From Stenotrophomonas sp. 278 (GTDB lineage: Bacteria; Pseudomonadota; Gammaproteobacteria; Xanthomonadales; Xanthomonadaceae), in the NCBI RefSeq assembly GCF_003935715.1, contig NZ_RHPP01000027.1:1-35291 (forward strand): a stretch of DNA of 35,291 nt, in the 5' to 3' direction. The translations under genes and the position numbers were made by a program. Below, piece by piece: positions 11,329 through 35,291 of this stretch. The notes under the pieces are model-generated. The model was given only the letters and a program-made list of their open reading frames with translations. It was not told where the DNA came from and searched no databases. The stretch's first letter is position 1. Each line of letters starts with the position of its first letter.

Positions 11329-11490
11329 GATGGATGTCCTCGAATGGGAATGGGGTTGTGCTTCCATCCACGTTCGAGGGGGGCGAGGCCTCTCACTGCC
11401 CTACCGGGCGCGACTCCGGCGTACTGCTTGCGTGGCGCGGTTGTCAGCCGCAGGGCCAGATTGCCCGCCTTGCCGAAGGCGTCAACGGAT

Positions 11491-11523: not shown

Positions 11524-12675
11524 TCAGGCGGCGTTGTTGGCCTGCTCGATCCCGAACTCCATCGCCTTCATCGGGTCGGTGAAGGCTGGGGCCATCGTCG
11601 GCTGCGGCCCGTTCGGTCGCATCGGGCCGGGGCGCGGCTGAGCCGGGGCTGCCGGAGCGGCGGGCGCTGCAACTGCCGGTGCCTGGATGCGGGCGTAGGC
11701 AAGCGCGGTTGCCTGTGGCCACTGGCTCGGGTGCATGGTGCGGCGAATCTCGGCCACCGCCTCGTTGAGCGCAGGACGCTTCGCCACATACTGCGGGTCC
11801 TGCGCCCGGGCGTCGGCGTCGAACTTCTGCAGCCAGGCAATGCCGTCCTGCTCAGCCTGCTGGGCGGCCTGTTGCGCCTCCTGCTGCTGGCGCTGGGCTG
11901 AGCTGCTGTAGGCACCCTGCGCGCGGGTGGAGGCGATCTCCAAGGCGCGAGTGCGCGGCAGGTCGCCCGACTGCACCTCGGCAAGCAGGTCCGCATGGGC
12001 GGCGAGCGGGTCATGGACGCCCGGGACTTCCTTTCCGAGCATCTGGGCCAGCACTGCCAGCTCCTTGGACATGACCTCGTAGGCCTGCCCTGCGGCAGAC
12101 ATGTCGCCGCGCTGCGCCTTGCTGATCAGGCCGAGGTAATCCAACGCCATACCGTACTGCTCAGGCGACGTGCCGGTGTCGGTCACCATCTTGACCATAT
12201 CCTCGCCAACCGAGGCGCGCTGCACCAGATCCGGCAGGGTCGCCACGTCCTCGATGCCGGCCGCCTTCAGCGCGTCACGGATCGGGGCCAGCTGCTTCAC
12301 TTCGGCGGCCAGACCACGGAAGCGCTCGGCGGTCTTGTCCTTCAGCCCCAGCGCAGTGATTTCGGCCTCGGTTTCGGCGTCAGGCTGCGGCTTATCAGGC
12401 TCGGCCGGCGGCTGGCCGTCTGCAGGCGGAGCGCCCTCCTGCGGCTGTGCCGGCTGCTGCTCGCCATCTGCGGGCGGCTGACCATCAGCTGCGGGGGTTG
12501 CCGGCGGAGTATCGGCGACCGGTGCCGCAGGTTCCGGCGCGGGCTCCGCAGCCGGTGGCGGGCTGGATTCATCCGCAGCGGCAATGCCAGCGTCGAGCGC
12601 GGCCATGGCGTCAGCGGTGATGTCGGTCGGGGTGGTGTCCGGCGCGGTGGCCGGAGTGTCGGTCGGGTCGGGCAT
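11524..12675 (-). CDS. Capsid scaffolding protein
   Basis: This is a 383-residue acidic protein. The first roughly 125 residues are low complexity (Pro/Ala/Asp/Gln), with repeated PADGQPPA-type units around residues 58-95. The middle is predicted coiled-coil/helical (about 100-290; for example TAERFRGLAAEVKQLAPIRD and a Gln-rich stretch with AQRQQQEAQQAAQQAEQ near 265-282). The C-terminus is Pro-rich and ends in a helix (PMKAMEFGIEQANNAA), where scaffolds usually bind coat protein. The location between portal and coat genes supports this strongly. The start at 12675 follows a tiny upstream frame by one base (TGACATG). Confidence 0.75.
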   Translation of the reverse strand: MPDPTDTPATAPDTTPTDITADAMAALDAGIAAADESSPPPAAEPAPEPAAPVADTPPATPAADGQPPADGEQQPAQPQEGAPPADGQPPAEPDKPQPDAETEAEITALGLKDKTAERFRGLAAEVKQLAPIRDALKAAGIEDVATLPDLVQRASVGEDMVKMVTDTGTSPEQYGMALDYLGLISKAQRGDMSAAGQAYEVMSKELAVLAQMLGKEVPGVHDPLAAHADLLAEVQSGDLPRTRALEIASTRAQGAYSSSAQRQQQEAQQAAQQAEQDGIAWLQKFDADARAQDPQYVAKRPALNEAVAEIRRTMHPSQWPQATALAYARIQAPAVAAPAAPAAPAQPRPGPMRPNGPQPTMAPAFTDPMKAMEFGIEQANNAA

Positions 12676-24322: not shown

Positions 24323-24373
24323 TTCTCCATCGCCCCACACCACCCAATTCCGGGCCGGGGCATGGAGACGAAG

Positions 24374-24778
24374 ATGACCCAGCAGTCGCAGCAGCGCTTC
24401 ACCCAGACCCACGGCGGCGTCCTGACTGTGATCGACGCCAGCACCGGCCTGGAGTGGATCGCCAAGCCGCTCAGCGAGAAGAAGTCCCACCAGGGCGCGA
24501 TTGATGCCTGCGACGCGCTGGACTTCGCCGGCCACACCGACTGGCGTCTGCCGACCACGAAGGAGCTGTACTCGCTGGTCGACCTGAGCCGGATTGAGCC
24601 GGCCATCGATACCGCTGCCTTCCCCGACTTCCCGAAGAGCGGCTGGTTCTGGACGAGCGATCTGTACGCGGGCGTTGCCTCGTGCGCGTGGGACGTCTAC
24701 TTCGGCAACGGCGGCGTCAACTACTACCACCGCAACAACTACGGGTTCGTGTTGGCCGTGCGCCGCGCCAGTCAGTAA
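24374..24778 (+). CDS. DUF1566/C-type-lectin-like protein, putative DGR target 1
   Basis: The product has 134 residues from ATG 24374, which has GGAG 6 nt upstream; an ATG at 24362 is less likely. The DUF1566 (Lcl C-terminal, formylglycine-enzyme/C-type-lectin-like) pattern is clear: ASTGLEWIAK, a helix with AIDACDALDFAGHTDWRLPT (about 46-65), TTKELYSLVD, WFWTS, and the C-terminal YAGVAS...AWDVYF...YHR...GFVLAVRRASQ. This fold is the classic scaffold of diversity-generating retroelement targets, where surface residues near the C-terminus are varied. No signal peptide is seen. It is the first gene after the PL-like promoter. The variable segment and its comparison with target 2 are given separately. 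Confidence 0.85.
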   Translation: MTQQSQQRFTQTHGGVLTVIDASTGLEWIAKPLSEKKSHQGAIDACDALDFAGHTDWRLPTTKELYSLVDLSRIEPAIDTAAFPDFPKSGWFWTSDLYAGVASCAWDVYFGNGGVNYYHRNNYGFVLAVRRASQ

Positions 24779-24791
24779 TTGGCCTTTTTGA
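24665..24791 (+). repeat. Putative DGR variable repeat 1 (VR1)
   Basis: This 127-bp segment covers the last 37 codons, the stop and 13 nt beyond. It aligns without gaps with 29873-29999. The final 43 bp (24749-24791) are identical in both copies and include TAATTGGCCTTTTTGA after the reading frame. Upstream, 13 codons differ, 12 of them ending in C in both copies. VR1 keeps four AAC codons (two of them adjacent), so it may be closer to the unseen template. Confidence 0.8.
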
Positions 24792-26028: not shown

Positions 26029-26282
26029 AGCACCTCACCGCGCCCTTCATGTGCGTCCTGGCTGTCGGCTTCTTCGCCGCGCTGCTGGTCCGCGCCATTC
26101 AGACCGACGCCTATTCGTTCGTGGTGTTTGGCATCGCCGGCTCTATCGCCTTCTCGATCCTCTGCTGGATGGAAACCCGCAAAGCATGGCCTGCGTTCCG
26201 GCGTGCGATGGAGCGCCGCAAGCAGATGCGCATCGCCCCGCCCTTCACCCGAATCAAGCTCCAGAAGGAAGACCTGCATTGA
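26025..26282 (+). CDS. Two-pass membrane protein (GTG start)
   Basis: The product has 85 residues from a GTG at 26025 with GGAG 9 nt before it. Two hydrophobic segments (FMCVLAVGFFAALLVRAI, about 8-25, and FVVFGIAGSIAFSILCWM, about 32-49) are followed by a strongly basic tail (AMERRKQMRIAPPFTRIKLQ). It is probably an inner-membrane protein with the basic tail in the cytoplasm. It lies directly before recT; its role is unknown. Confidence 0.55.
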   Translation: MKHLTAPFMCVLAVGFFAALLVRAIQTDAYSFVVFGIAGSIAFSILCWMETRKAWPAFRRAMERRKQMRIAPPFTRIKLQKEDLH

Positions 26283-27070
26283 ACGCCATGACCGAATCGC
26301 CGACATCCCTGACTGCGCAGCCGCGCCAGCAGTTCGACCTCAGCCCGCAGACCTTCGAGCAGGCGCTGCAGTTCTCCGACATCCTCGCCGAAAGCGACCT
26401 GGTGCCGAAGGACTTCAAGGGCAAGCCGGGCAACTGTCTGATCGCCATGCAGTGGGGTGCCGAGCTGGGCCTGAAGCCTCTTCAGGCTCTGCAGAACATC
26501 GCCATCATCAACGGCCGCCCGGCCCTGTGGGGTGACGCAGTAATCGCCCTGGTGCGCAGCTCGCCGCTGTGTGAATACATCACCGAATCGGACGATGGCG
26601 GAACGGCGGTGTGCCGTGTGAAGCGCCGCGGCGAGTCTGAGGAAGTCCGCACCTTCAGCATGGAGGACGCCAAGGCAGCCGGCCTTGCCGGCAAGCAGGG
26701 GCCGTGGACGCAGTACCCGAAGCGTATGCGCCAGATGCGCGCCCGCGCCTTTGCGTTGCGTGATGTCTTCCCTGACGTGCTGCGCGGCATGCCCATCGCT
26801 GAAGAGGTCATGGATATTCCTGCCGGCAGTGAATCGCCGCGCTCAACTTCGAGCATCACCGCCGACAAGGCGCTGCCGCTGTACTCGGAGTCTGATTTCG
26901 CGGCAAACCTGCCGAAGTGGTGGGACATCATCGCCAGCGGCAAGAAGTCAGCCGAGGACCTGATCGCCACGCTTCAGACGAAGGCGAGGTTCACCGCCGA
27001 GCAGCTGAAGGAAATCCGCAACCCGCCCACCGACGTTGACGAAACCACCGAGCAGGACGAGGAGAGCTGA
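26279..27070 (+). CDS. recT: RecT-family single-strand annealing recombinase
   Basis: The protein has about 263 residues. The RecT pattern is present: FDLSPQTFEQALQFSDILAE, VPKDFKGKPGNCLIAMQWGA (about 42-61), LGLKPLQALQNIAIINGRPA, WGDAVIALVRSS, and YPKRMRQMRARAFALRDVFP (about 145-164), then an acidic C-terminus. RecT/Bet-type proteins anneal complementary strands and work with a partner exonuclease, here encoded next. The start is taken as TTG 26279 because it overlaps the previous stop (TTGA) and has AAGGA 9 nt before it; ATG 26288 is the alternative and lacks a ribosome-binding site. Confidence 0.85.
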   Translation: MNAMTESPTSLTAQPRQQFDLSPQTFEQALQFSDILAESDLVPKDFKGKPGNCLIAMQWGAELGLKPLQALQNIAIINGRPALWGDAVIALVRSSPLCEYITESDDGGTAVCRVKRRGESEEVRTFSMEDAKAAGLAGKQGPWTQYPKRMRQMRARAFALRDVFPDVLRGMPIAEEVMDIPAGSESPRSTSSITADKALPLYSESDFAANLPKWWDIIASGKKSAEDLIATLQTKARFTAEQLKEIRNPPTDVDETTEQDEES

Positions 27071-27072
27071 GC

Positions 27073-28821
27073 ATGAGGACCGTTGAGCTGATCCAAGGCA
27101 CACCGGAGTGGCACGAACACCGCGCGCAGCATTTCAACGCCAGCGACGCGCCGTCCATGCTCGGCGTCTCTACCAACCACACTCGCACTGACCTCCTGAA
27201 GGAATTGGCGGCAGGCGTGCCGCGCGAGTTCAGCGATTTTGTGAAGGATCGTGTGATCGACCCGGGGCATGAGTACGAAGCCCAGGCGCGCGTCATCGCG
27301 GAGCAGATCGTCGGCGAAGACCTGTACCCGGTCACAGGCGTGAGCGGCAAGTACTCCGCCAGCTTCGACGGGCTCACCCTGCTGGAAGACACCGCTTTCG
27401 AGCATAAGCGCCTGAACGAGACGCTGCGCGAGGCCATGTTCGACGGCTGCACCGGGACGGATCTTCCGCTCATGTACCAGGTGCAGATGGAACACCAGTG
27501 CATGGTGGCCGAAGGCTGCGAGCGTGTGCTGTTCATGGCTTCCGAGTGGAAGCGCGTGGGCGACAGCTGGGAGCTGGTGGAAGAGCGCCACTGCTGGTAC
27601 ACCCCGAATCTGGAGCTGCGCTCGCGCATCGTGACGGGCTGGGCCCAGCTGGAAGCCGACGTGGCCGCGTTCGTTCCTGCACCTGCCGCCGCTGCCCCGG
27701 CCACTGGCCGCGCCCCCGACCAGATGCCCGCGCTCCGAATCGAAGTGACCGGCATGGTGACCGCTTCCAATCTGGTCGAGTGGAAGGAGCAGGCCATCGC
27801 GGTGTTCCAGGGCATCAGCCAGGAACTGGTCACGGATCAGGACTTTGCCGACGCCGAGAAGACGGTGAAGTGGTGCGGCGAGATCGAGGACCAGCTGAAG
27901 GGCGCGAAGCAGCACGCCCTGAGCCAGACCGAGAGCATCGACCTGCTGTTCCGGACCATTGACGAGATCAGCGCGCAAGCCCGGGAAACCCGGCTGGCGT
28001 TGGACAAACTGGTGGCGAAGCGGAAGGACGAGCGTCGCACGGAGATCGGCAACGCCGCCCGCCGCGCGGTGATCGATCACGTCCAGGCGATCAACCAGAC
28101 CCTGGGTGCGCACGCCCTGCCGATGCCTGCAACGCTGGTGGCCGATATCGCCGCCGCCATCAAGGGCAAGCGCTCTTTCGCCAGCATGCAGGACGCCGTA
28201 GATACGGTGGCCACCAACGCGAAGATCACTGCCAGTCAGGCGGCCGATCGGATCCGCGCCAACATCCGCGTGCTGGAAATGGAGGAAGGCACCTACGGCG
28301 CGCTCTTCCCGGACCGCGTGCAGCTGTGCGCCAGCAAGGCACCGGAGGATCTGCGGAACCTGATCGCAGCCCGCATCGGCGAGCACAAGAAGGCCGAGGA
28401 AGAGCGCCTGCAGCTCGAGCGTGACCGCATCCGCCAGGAAGAGGCGGACAAGGCCCGCAAGCAGCTAGAGGCCGAGCAGGTAGCCGCGCAGCAGCAGCCG
28501 GACCCGGTGGCCTTGGCTGAGCCGGTGGACGAGCCTGCGCAGCACCAGCACCAGCGTGCGGTCGTGGGCCTGGTGCGCACGCCTGCAGTTGCACCGGCAG
28601 CCGGCCCGCGCGCCGTCGTGAAGGTCAAGCTCGGCGACATCAACGCCCGCATCGCGCCGCTGACCATCAGCGCCGAGGGTTTGGCAAAGCTGGGTTTCAA
28701 CGCCCTGCCTGAGAAGGGTGCCGCGAAGCTCTACGACGACGCCCAGTTCCTCGACATCTGCAATGCCCTGTCTGCCGCAGCACTCCGTGCGGGCAGCGAA
28801 TGGCTGCAGACGGCTGCCTGA
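27073..28821 (+). CDS. YqaJ-type exonuclease fused to a long DUF1351-like C-terminal region
   Basis: This is a 582-residue protein. The N-terminal roughly 210 residues are a YqaJ viral recombinase (lambda exonuclease-like, PD-(D/E)xK fold): GTPEWHEHRAQHFNASDAPS (9-28), SFDG with D99, FEHK with E110 and K112, and YQVQMEHQCMV (135-145). The remaining 370 residues are not part of a normal YqaJ protein. They comprise a helical region resembling DUF1351 (about 225-330), a charged coiled coil (about 450-490) and an Ala/Pro/Gln linker, ending in a small globular tail. The partner of RecT degrades one strand to expose DNA for annealing. All nuclease residues expected are present. Confidence 0.8.
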   Translation: MRTVELIQGTPEWHEHRAQHFNASDAPSMLGVSTNHTRTDLLKELAAGVPREFSDFVKDRVIDPGHEYEAQARVIAEQIVGEDLYPVTGVSGKYSASFDGLTLLEDTAFEHKRLNETLREAMFDGCTGTDLPLMYQVQMEHQCMVAEGCERVLFMASEWKRVGDSWELVEERHCWYTPNLELRSRIVTGWAQLEADVAAFVPAPAAAAPATGRAPDQMPALRIEVTGMVTASNLVEWKEQAIAVFQGISQELVTDQDFADAEKTVKWCGEIEDQLKGAKQHALSQTESIDLLFRTIDEISAQARETRLALDKLVAKRKDERRTEIGNAARRAVIDHVQAINQTLGAHALPMPATLVADIAAAIKGKRSFASMQDAVDTVATNAKITASQAADRIRANIRVLEMEEGTYGALFPDRVQLCASKAPEDLRNLIAARIGEHKKAEEERLQLERDRIRQEEADKARKQLEAEQVAAQQQPDPVALAEPVDEPAQHQHQRAVVGLVRTPAVAPAAGPRAVVKVKLGDINARIAPLTISAEGLAKLGFNALPEKGAAKLYDDAQFLDICNALSAAALRAGSEWLQTAA

Positions 28822-29076: not shown

Positions 29077-29408
29077 AGAGCTTCGCCGGAAAAGCCAGTC
29101 TGCGCCTCGCAGCACCGGCCCATATCACCGCCCGAGACCTGCTTCGCCGCCACTTGCATGAGGCGCGACTCGATCTGAAATGGCTGGCCGACGCCTGGGG
29201 ATGCAAGCCGTTCAGCGTGTGGCGCTGCTTCCAGAGGGTCAAAGCGCCAATGCAACCCAGGCAAATCGAAGCTGCCATCACCGCCCTGGAGCTTGACGAC
29301 TTCGACGCCAACGAAATACGCCTCACCGCCGCCCGCGAGGCCGGCTGGAAGATCGACCCGCAGTTTCTCCTGAGCAACACCCCATCCACCCGCAAGGAGT
29401 CGCAATGA
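29073..29408 (+). CDS. HTH-like phage protein upstream of DGR target 2
   Basis: The protein has 111 residues. A helix-turn-helix pattern is seen at about 25-57 (LRRHLHEARLDLKWLADAWG then CKPFSVWRCFQR). A C-terminal LTAAREAGWKI element (about 86-96) recurs in the protein at 32512-32769 as LAARHEGWKL, where it also follows a helix-turn-helix. The two are probably diverged paralogues. The N-terminus is basic (MKSFAGKASLRLAAPAHITA). DNA binding is inferred; the target is unknown. It overlaps the target gene by 4 nt, so it may be co-regulated with it. Confidence 0.6.
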   Translation: MKSFAGKASLRLAAPAHITARDLLRRHLHEARLDLKWLADAWGCKPFSVWRCFQRVKAPMQPRQIEAAITALELDDFDANEIRLTAAREAGWKIDPQFLLSNTPSTRKESQ

Positions 29409-29986
29409 ACGCAGTAACCATCCATACCGGCGGTGCCTCGATCACCATTGATGGGTCGAGCATCAGCGTGCAGCAGGTTGAGAGGCCGCTGCCGAACCGT
29501 GAGCTGGGCATCGATCAGTTGTCCCGCACCGTCGGCCAGGTCGCCGTGACGCACACGAAGCTGTTTGCCGACGGAACTACCGCCAACAACAGCGGCAGGA
29601 ACTTCTCTCGCACCGAGCATGTGGCCATCATCGACCACGCCACCGGCCTGATGTGGGCTGTGGAGTCCATCGGCGACGAGGACGGCGACCCGATGAATCA
29701 CGCCGCGTGCGTCAAGGCTGCCGGCGAGCTGCGACTTCTGGGGCACGACGACTGGCGTCTGCCGACCCGCTCCGAGCTGGCCGCCCTGGTGGACGACACC
29801 CGCACTGATCCGGCCATCGATACCAGCCTGTTCCCGCGCGTGAAGCCGCATTGGCACTGGACCAGCACGGACTACGCGGGCGGTGCCTCGTACGCGTGGG
29901 GCGTCCACTTCGACCACGGCCACTTCGGCTCCTACCACCGCGCCTACGACGGGTTTGTGTTGGCCGTGCGCCGCGCCAGTCAGTAA
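29405..29986 (+). CDS. DUF1566/C-type-lectin-like protein, putative DGR target 2
   Basis: The product has 193 residues. AAGGAG lies 5 nt before the ATG, which overlaps the previous stop (ATGA). An N-terminal extension of about 65 residues (IHTGGASITIDGSSISVQQV) is absent from target 1. Then the DUF1566 pattern appears: EHVAIIDHATGLMWAVESIG, AACVKAAGELRLLGHDDWRL (about 102-121), PTRSELAALVDDTRTDPAID, HWHWTS, and the C-terminal YAGGAS...AWGVHF...YHR...GFVLAVRRASQ. The conserved frame of tryptophans and the VR at the end are those of DGR targets. It is followed directly by an Avd-like gene. No signal peptide or secretion motif is visible. Confidence 0.85.
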   Translation: MNAVTIHTGGASITIDGSSISVQQVERPLPNRELGIDQLSRTVGQVAVTHTKLFADGTTANNSGRNFSRTEHVAIIDHATGLMWAVESIGDEDGDPMNHAACVKAAGELRLLGHDDWRLPTRSELAALVDDTRTDPAIDTSLFPRVKPHWHWTSTDYAGGASYAWGVHFDHGHFGSYHRAYDGFVLAVRRASQ

Positions 29987-29999
29987 TTGGCCTTTTTGA
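29873..29999 (+). repeat. Putative DGR variable repeat 2 (VR2)
   Basis: The partner of VR1 has equal length (127 bp) and aligns without gaps. Seventeen positions differ: 16 at codon positions 1 or 2, changing 13 codons, plus one silent third-position change (TTC/TTT). The 43 bp at 29957-29999 equal 24749-24791 exactly. In VR2 no AAC codon remains; the matching sites are CAC, GGC, GCC and TAC. Confidence 0.8.
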
Positions 30000-30012: not shown

Positions 30013-30309
30013 ATGACTTCCAGATTCCAGCCCCCGCCGATCATCAAAGCGTCCGAGAGGTTGCTTGTGGACATTGAGAAGGCCGTGCGCGCGTTCCCGC
30101 GCTATCACCGCTACGCAGTTGGTTCAGACCTCCGCTCCAAGGCGATGGAGGTTCTGACCGGTGCCGGGCGCGCATGGCGGGACCGCGCGTCCCAGGCGCG
30201 ACTGGTCGGCGAGCTGGTCTGGAAGGTCGACGAGCTGAAGCAGTACCTGCAGGTTGCCCAGCTGTTGCGTGCATATAGCAGCTTCGGGCAGTTCTGGGAG
30301 GTACTGTGA
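30013..30309 (+). CDS. avd: Avd-like DGR accessory protein (four-helix bundle)
   Basis: The protein has 98 residues. Sequence and place fit the DGR accessory variability determinant: a helix with ASERLLVDIEKAVRAFPRYH (about 13-32), the FPRYHRYAVGSDLR turn, a second and third helix rich in Ala/Arg, and VGELVWKVDELKQYLQVAQL (about 67-86). Avd is a pentameric, basic four-helix bundle that binds the template RNA and the reverse transcriptase and is required for cDNA synthesis in the Bordetella phage system. Its gene starts 14 nt after the VR2 repeat. A related four-helix (S23-type) protein without DGR role is the alternative; the location argues against that. No reverse transcriptase follows. Confidence 0.75.
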   Translation: MTSRFQPPPIIKASERLLVDIEKAVRAFPRYHRYAVGSDLRSKAMEVLTGAGRAWRDRASQARLVGELVWKVDELKQYLQVAQLLRAYSSFGQFWEVL

Positions 30310-30893
30310 TGGTTGCTCGTACCCACGGCATGACCAGGGAGGCGGACGGCCGGCGCGGCCACACGTACACGGTGTGGGCCACTATGCGTCACCGCTGCAG
30401 CAACCCCAAGGCTCGGCACTACCCCCGGTATGGCGGTCGCGGCATCTCCGTGTGTGAACGGTGGTCCGTGTTCGAGAACTTCTTGGCGGACATGGGCGAG
30501 CGCCCGGCTGACAAGCAGCTCGACCGAATCGACAACAATGCCGGGTACAGCCCCGAAAACTGCCGCTGGGTGAGCGCGAAGGAGAACGGTCGGAACAGGT
30601 CGAACAACCGTCTCCTGACCCTCAACGGTGAAACCCTCCCTCTCGCCGCATGGGTGGAAAGGACCGGATTTAGCCTCGCAACTTTGCAAGGCCGCGTGCG
30701 AATGGGCTGGCCCGATGAGCGCGTTCTGACTGAGCCGGCGCGCGCCCGAGGCGAGAAAAGGCACCTCACTGTCAACGGCGTCACTAAGCCATTGAGCGCC
30801 TGGTGCGCGGAGCTTGGCCTGAGCGCCACCACGGTTCGCCACCGGCTCCAGAAGCAGGGGATGACCGCCGCCGAAGCCTTGGGACTCAGCTGA
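30309..30893 (+). CDS. HNH-like/homing-endonuclease-like protein with two C-terminal DNA-binding repeats
   Basis: The product has 194 residues from ATG 30309; a GTG at 30306 overlaps the avd stop and is possible. The N-terminal part (YPRYGGRGISVCERWSVFEN, about 38-57; then DRIDNNAGYSPENCRWVSAK) has the order and key residues of a phage HNH-like endonuclease family. The C-terminal half has two repeats, LTLNGETLPLAAWVERTGFS and LTVNGVTKPLSAWCAELGLS, each with a following helix (about 100-140 and 150-194), like NUMOD/HTH modules of homing endonucleases. The family often moves itself in phage genomes. Here it fills the place where a DGR reverse transcriptase is expected. Cleavage activity is inferred only. 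Confidence 0.7.
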   Translation: MVARTHGMTREADGRRGHTYTVWATMRHRCSNPKARHYPRYGGRGISVCERWSVFENFLADMGERPADKQLDRIDNNAGYSPENCRWVSAKENGRNRSNNRLLTLNGETLPLAAWVERTGFSLATLQGRVRMGWPDERVLTEPARARGEKRHLTVNGVTKPLSAWCAELGLSATTVRHRLQKQGMTAAEALGLS

Positions 30894-31015
30894 TGCGTCG
30901 CATCCACACCCGATTCCCCTGGCTGCACTCCGCAGCCCGACCCCGCCGATTCAGCCTCAAGGCCGAGCGGCGCACCCTCACGATCAAGTGGCACCAGCAC
31001 AAGGAGCAGGCATGA
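30893..31015 (+). CDS. Hypothetical 40-residue basic protein
   Basis: The ATG overlaps the upstream TGA (TGATG). The product (MRRIHTRFPWLHSAARPRRF, then KAERRTLTIKWHQHKEQA) is very basic, with two Trp. It could bind nucleic acid. It overlaps the next tiny frame by 4 nt. It is too short for a family call. Confidence 0.45.
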   Translation: MRRIHTRFPWLHSAARPRRFSLKAERRTLTIKWHQHKEQA

Positions 31016-35214: not shown

Positions 35215-35291
35215 TCCTGCTTGGCGACCCTTCTGCGCATCCTAGGGTTGTGGCGTCGCTCGATGTAGTCAAACACATCCGCTCGTGCCGC
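35169..35291 (-). mobile_element. IS3-type transposase C-terminal end (partial, continues past window)
   Basis: On the minus strand the frame is open from the window edge to a TAG at 35169-35171. It reads ADVFDYIERRHNPRMRRRVA near its start. The 'VFDYIExxxNPxxRR' pattern is that of the end of IS3-family OrfB transposases (DDE integrase core). The last residues (VAALLEPSVISG) may already lie outside the IS. No IS terminal repeat could be fixed here. Alternatives are another rve-type transposase; a cellular protein is unlikely. Confidence 0.45.

Follow-up and report, generated by a model that had tools for sequence, protein, structure and literature searches.

The stretch of DNA analysed here, which we call the window, is one complete contig of 35,291 bp from Stenotrophomonas sp. 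278 (NZ_RHPP01000027.1 of RefSeq assembly GCF_003935715.1, which comprises 337 contigs and is rated 100% complete), and it is a prophage. We are interested in two of its genes, which encode proteins of the Lcl_C family, formerly named DUF1566, and each of which ends in a variable repeat (VR) like those of diversity-generating retroelements (DGRs). Downstream of the second repeat lie a truncated gene for Avd and the tail of a gene for reverse transcriptase (RT), with the gene of a putative HNH endonuclease between them; a template repeat (TR) is missing. The features under study are the following.

24362..24778, + strand: target gene 1, a DUF1566/Lcl_C protein of 138 residues with VR1 at its 3' end (PF07603, E 2.8e-28)
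24681..24791, + strand: VR1, of which 24681-24776 is shared with TR
26051-28821: RecE/RecT-like genes, between the two targets
29405..29986, + strand: target gene 2, a DUF1566/Lcl_C protein of 193 residues with VR2 at its 3' end (PF07603, E 3.8e-26)
29889..29999, + strand: VR2, of which 29889-29984 is shared with TR
30013..30309, + strand: truncated Avd gene of 98 codons (phrog_3206 'Avd protein of DGR', E 3.1e-7)
30309..30893, + strand: putative HNH endonuclease gene, 194 residues (phrog_3377, E 9.4e-61; the open reading frame is listed from 30306)
30890..31015, + strand: RT relic, the last 41 codons plus stop with the frame open (82.5% identity to residues 414-453 of the RT of a relative, locus L019)

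Two repeats and their differences

The initial annotation, made from the sequence of the window alone, had aligned 24665-24791 with 29873-29999 over 127 bp without gaps, and our recount agrees with it: there are 17 differences and no indels. All but one of the 17 fall at codon positions 1 or 2, where they alter 13 codons, 12 of which end in C in both copies; the sole silent difference is TTC/TTT at site 84, and the final 43 bp of the two repeats are identical. The exception among the altered codons, GTT/GGT at alignment position 11, lies 5' of the repeat shared with TR. With the templates of relatives as reference, the TR-shared core extends from alignment position 17 (24681 in VR1, 29889 in VR2) to about position 112 and contains 16 differences, while the final 15 bp of VR1 (24681-24791) are common to VRs only and not to TR. 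In both targets the VR forms the 3' end of the Lcl_C gene and stops at the gene's stop codon; in the VR2 protein the varied residues are 166-182. The assignment of both genes to DUF1566, also part of the initial annotation, is borne out by PF07603.

Ordinary divergence of paralogues was expected to place many changes at third positions, and upstream of the repeats this is indeed what we see: 95 aligned codons there differ 43, 37 and 39 times at positions 1, 2 and 3, as against 8, 7 and 1 times in the 32 codons of the repeat (Fisher p = 0.038). It is extremely unlikely that paralogue divergence or positive selection, combined with gene conversion of the 3' ends, produced these repeats without a retroelement. 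The two genes are paralogues, and conversion would leave an identical stretch such as their last 43 bp, but third-position differences number 1 in 32 VR codons versus 39 in 95 upstream codons, and the variable sites coincide with the adenines of relatives' TRs. The Avd gene and RT tail beside VR2 refute this explanation as the sole cause.

A third copy of the repeat, or hidden template, is not found in the phage's own genome, where the other 38 of 40 matches are short, with E 0.02 or worse; nor is a third Lcl_C gene found there.

The place of the diversifying cassette

The HNH gene occupies the place of the 3' end of avd, of the TR and of some 90% of the RT gene, such that about 1.39 kb of avd-TR-RT in the relative L071 corresponds to about 0.58 kb in the window. 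What remains of avd, beside VR2, still belongs to its family, but the protein is truncated: Avd frames have 146-155 codons in 18 other genomes of the bacterial family, versus 98 in the window. Both borders of the HNH gene carry TGATG (30307-30311 and 30891-30895). Its stop codon lies inside CTGATG, and the same CTGATG occurs in the RT tail of L071, L020, L023 and L019. The G+C content of the HNH gene, 0.65, equals that of the window, and thus composition gives no date for its arrival.

Elsewhere in the genome of Stenotrophomonas sp. 278 there is no intact RT. No protein matches PF00078 (RVT_1), and a relative's RT used as query matches only 30875-31009 and the two VRs. Of the parts that make a complete DGR, an intact RT and a TR are both absent from the phage's own genome, and both are present in relatives.

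A draft assembly might have lost an intact and active cassette, with template and RT merely missing from its 337 contigs. The window contig does end at 35291, and such breaks do occur, since the contig of one relative (L037) breaks inside the TR. However, the expected place of the cassette is internal rather than at a contig end, with the contig running continuously from VR2 through the truncated avd, the HNH gene and the RT relic to the integrase gene, and no intact RT is found elsewhere in a genome rated 100% complete. We regard this explanation as very unlikely.

Phages frequently encode HNH proteins of this type (936 records). The one studied here has no Pfam or NCBIfam match at 0.01. Besides the window's own copies, no homologue of the gene is present in the DGR relatives compared, and among the loci examined no other phage carried it in this position. 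Conversely, 80 HNH loci, drawn from at least 600 candidates, contain no Avd or RT match; a single one of them (L107) has a weak DUF1566 match. Among 91 genomes of the genus, the whole stretch 30013-31015 is matched by the phage's own genome only, while four others match parts of it, one of these (G010) over 70 bp inside the HNH gene. A 21-base pattern for the VR 3' end occurs in no IMG/VR entry but the window's own, and a 27-base pattern for it has no match in the genome contigs.

Intact cassettes in relatives

The initial annotation had made its proposal depend on a template or RT in the genome itself or in close relatives, and relatives carry both. VR1 is matched (E 0.001 or better) in seven of the 91 genus genomes, its own included, two of the other six matches being short. 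In IMG/VR the proteins of target genes 1 and 2 yield 10 and 17 loci, with the window's own record in both sets: target gene 1 has relatives at 65-72% identity on nine other viral contigs, and target gene 2 has relatives on 16 others, 14 of them at 55-60% identity. An RVT_1 domain is present in 16 of the 20 genomes or records searched. When the window's VRs are aligned to these loci by BLAST, the gene order is VR or VRs, Avd, TR, RT. The relatives' TR is rich in AAC and shares alignment positions 17-112 with the VRs; the distance to the RVT_1 match is about 280 bp from its start and about 190 bp from its end. In L019 the RT frame begins at 11474 and its 5' end includes the TR (11553-11648); the same stretch is found in the RT frames of other relatives.

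The RT of L019 matches RVT_1 above its cut-off as well as phrog_1423 'Reverse transcriptase'; all its NCBIfam matches are below cut-offs. Seven of seven RTs checked contain both YxDD and [ILV]GxxxSQ, the latter a motif characteristic of DGR RTs (Schillinger et al. 2012, PMC3521204). A Bordetella phage RT also matches that of L019 (E 2e-36). Near full-length RT matches occur in four of the 91 genus genomes (G046, G050, G076 and G078), one of which has two loci. As for Avd, 19 of 395 family genomes match it besides the phage's own, 18 of them with an adjacent RT. The nineteenth match (G463), which lacks an adjacent RT, is weak (E 9.5e-6) and lies in a frame of 399 codons.

The genome with two DGR loci, G076, uses a different template at each (L069 on contig C22 and L072 on C221), and the two RTs are 84% and 65% identical to that of L019. 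Eleven loci (L013-L016, L018-L022, L025 and L069) have two VRs about 460 bp apart shortly before the TR; the two of L019 lie in two tandem genes, and in L015 and L069 another VR, the third, lies 4.3 kb further upstream.

Four of the 20 relatives searched lack an RT (G105, G106, G102 and G081). Two of these were set aside as further RT-less cases: the contig of G105 (L037) stops inside the TR, and the record of G106 extends only 3.3 kb past the VR gene, too short to tell. G102 (L078) has a VR1-type gene in a viral contig, and the 10.8 kb beyond it contain neither another VR gene nor any homologue of RecET, Avd or RT. In G081, which consists of two contigs and gave no match in either RT search, the end of a VR-like gene near a phage repressor gene (L073:10733-11221, - strand) is 72-75% identical to the window's VRs. 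It is possibly a second orphaned DGR target, though its differences from the L019 TR include several at non-adenine sites.

Differences at template adenines in relatives and in the window

We compared 33 VRs, each with its own TR over 96 bp, using the 17 loci that have a TR and whose VRs align without gaps. Several sequences stand outside this comparison: in L020 the second VR, which aligned with gaps; L037 (truncated TR); L024, L026, L031, L032, L033 and L038 (no TR in the DNA compared); the diverged locus on C221 of G076 (L050/L068/L072); and duplicates of counted loci, namely further excerpts from the same records and G046, which is identical to G094 over the 14 kb compared. The 516 VR-TR mismatches consist of 481 at TR adenines, 33 at the fixed site 109 and 2 elsewhere. 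All 33 VRs are distinct, whereas the TRs of the 17 loci take two forms only, and no VR contains an in-frame stop. Between VRs of the same phage (18 pairs), 268 of 270 differences lie at TR adenines. The initial annotation had proposed comparing VRs in related strains for variation at A sites only; in the relatives, variation lies overwhelmingly at template adenines. Site 109 is C in all 33 of these VRs and in both VRs of the window, and G in the 19 TRs listed; it is a fixed 3' difference between VR and TR, resembling what the literature labels the initiation of mutagenic homing (IMH) site.

In the window, 13 of the 16 core differences coincide with sites at which all 19 TRs listed have A (hypergeometric p = 2.3e-7; 24 of the 96 positions are A in the L019 TR). 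The initial annotation had ascribed the differences to adenine-specific retrohoming from a template rich in AAC, and had suggested a search of the genome for a template with adenines at every variable site. Its interpretation is supported, with one correction: relatives have an AAC-rich TR, whose core at 17-112 carries adenines at 13 of the 16 sites, together with an RT, while the phage's own genome has no template and its cassette is gone. Three of the 16 sites are left unexplained by the template adenines of relatives.

Several observations weigh against the interpretation that we give below, of orphaned DGR targets. The three remaining differences, at sites 20, 52 and 84, are not on relatives' TR adenines, and this proportion, 3/16, exceeds the 2/270 of intact phages (Fisher p 0.0014; p 0.16 when the silent site alone is counted). 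No TR examined has an A at site 52. Moreover, the 19 TRs amount to three distinct sequences and are not independent, the adenine match is judged by relatives' templates, the window's own not being visible, and DGR activity in those relatives is itself suggested by their sequences. Finally, the curated Avd models are matched below their cut-offs only (NF033474, E 5.5e-6), and Avd has no Pfam match at 0.01.

The off-adenine differences may reflect ordinary drift after the loss of the cassette or, at site 20, a slightly different lost template. Of 12 TRs of the wider family (14 loci tried), 4 have an A at site 20, and the template that the window lost may likewise have carried one. Random mutations are expected to accumulate in an inactivated DGR (PMC3521204), and the excess of non-adenine differences in the window fits that expectation. 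At the non-adenine sites 99, 102 and 106 both VRs also differ from all 19 TRs, and at 36 and 86 they differ from the majority, as would be expected if the phage's own template had been a diverged one; TRs of the wider family, such as that of L169, are closer to the window's VRs.

These same data bear on whether the VRs, their own DGR parts lost, are still renewed in trans by a related DGR phage that infects or lysogenises the host. This is compatible with the loss of the cassette and differs from it on present activity only. DGR prophages of this type occur in the genus (the four of 91 genomes with a near full-length RT), and both VRs retain the identical 43-bp 3' end. On the other side, the host genome itself has no intact RT, the VR pair has an excess of non-adenine differences, and there are the differences from the 19 TRs at 99, 102, 106 and mostly 36 and 86, though L169-type TRs are closer. 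We consider renewal in trans unlikely, while allowing it some chance.

Probable orphaned targets

Our interpretation is that the two VRs are orphaned DGR targets, whose template and most of whose RT have been replaced by an HNH gene, and whose shuffling has probably stopped unless a related phage acts in trans; we give it a probability of roughly 0.95. The anatomy of the VRs, their match to relatives' TR adenines, the scar beside VR2 and the lack of an intact RT or TR in the assembly are direct observations. Mutagenic retrohoming in the past we infer from the relatives and the known DGR mechanism. In the ancestral prophage an AAC-rich template RNA would have been reverse-transcribed with errors at adenines, Avd assisting, and the cDNA would have replaced the 3' ends of the two DUF1566 genes, diversifying some 12 residues in either C-type-lectin-like protein. 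A free-standing HNH endonuclease gene would later have displaced about 410 codons of RT, together with the template and the 3' third of avd. The prophage would now be left with two intact orphaned targets, a truncated avd and an RT tail. Lacking TR and an intact RT, and with avd truncated, it should be unable to diversify the targets by itself, and diversifying activity has probably been lost. Given the relation of Lcl_C to C-type lectins described in PMC6642488, the two proteins may bind ligands via the varied residues.

The HNH gene, an endonuclease by family match, may cut, and spread into, an allele that lacks it; its arrival may have come about by homing or by chance phage recombination. 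A stronger proposal is that it is a selfish element that cuts the TR/RT of DGR phages and was copied in with the help of the RecE/RecT-like proteins, thereby freezing the targets. We think this distinctly improbable; if true, a hypermutation engine would have been replaced by a nuclease, and the targets fixed at one successful variant. The RecT-like and RecE-like genes, located as they are between the two targets, might also be credited with shuffling VR segments between the genes independently of any RT. However, recombination alone moves existing variants and creates no changes at template adenines, and the VR differences are scattered over single sites; such shuffling is a highly improbable explanation.

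The locus is a clean fossil, since both flanks of the replacing gene preserve remains: the repeats of the targets with two thirds of avd on one side, and the RT tail on the other. The 33 distinct VRs of relatives provide a yardstick for how VR sequences behave once the engine stops. The arrangement also raises the question of whether a phage gains from fixing a chosen variant, and it has a practical consequence: scans that demand an RT or a template beside a VR would miss such targets.

The prophage and its setting

The prophage genes of the window include terminase subunits, an SU10-type adaptor, the major head protein and tail fibre proteins, together with two HNH proteins, an integrase, RecT-like and RecE-like proteins and a repressor-like protein. 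IMG/VR includes the window's contig as a viral record, identical in the part compared. The target genes sit among early-type genes (repressor-like and RecT/RecE-like, before the integrase) and apart from the head and tail genes, which sets them off from the target of phage BPP-1. Searches for phage records related to the VR2 protein found none, a profile search of solved structures gave no match, and Rfam gave none at gathering scores. The predicted AlphaFold model of the VR2 protein has a mean pLDDT (predicted local distance difference test score) of 41.7, which is very low confidence, and we do not use it as support.

Comparison with known systems

The DGR of Bordetella phage BPP-1 is the prototype of these elements, with the order VR, Avd, TR, RT, and its target is the tail gene mtd. 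The window resembles it in having a C-type-lectin-like target gene whose 3' end is a VR and which was followed, to judge by relatives, by Avd, TR and RT. It differs in that its targets are small DUF1566 proteins near recombination genes, with no TR or intact RT.

DUF1566 is the commonest Pfam domain among DGR targets (PMC6642488), and up to eight similar targets are reported in Treponema denticola and Stenotrophomonas sp. (PMC10743442). A close system is the multi-target DUF1566 DGR of Stenotrophomonas sp. SKA14 (PMC6642488), which belongs to the same genus and likewise has several VRs in DUF1566 genes; the window, which we liken to it by description, has no TR and only the tail of an RT. In the 'Group 3' DGRs of Schillinger et al. 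(PMC3521204) the annotated RT frame overlaps the TR at its 5' or its 3' end. The intact relatives, in which the 5' end of the RT frame contains the TR, are similar in this respect, and the window has lost that part.

DGRs, DGRs with multiple DUF1566 targets and inactivated DGRs are all already in print (PMC6642488, PMC3521204), and sequence variants have been used to estimate active and inactive DGRs (PMC8144416). In the literature covered, judged by titles and the starts of abstracts and leaving most subscription literature outside, we found no description of a DGR replaced by an HNH or homing endonuclease. The closest parallel is with the inactivated DGRs of PMC3521204, in which the RT is likewise broken while the VRs remain. 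In those elements a nonsense mutation, a frameshift or an insertion element interrupts the RT, and the VR/TR repeats are intact; the window, by contrast, lacks the TR and all but the tail of the RT, whose positions are taken by an HNH gene. We therefore read the locus as a defunct DGR, inactivated in an unusual way.
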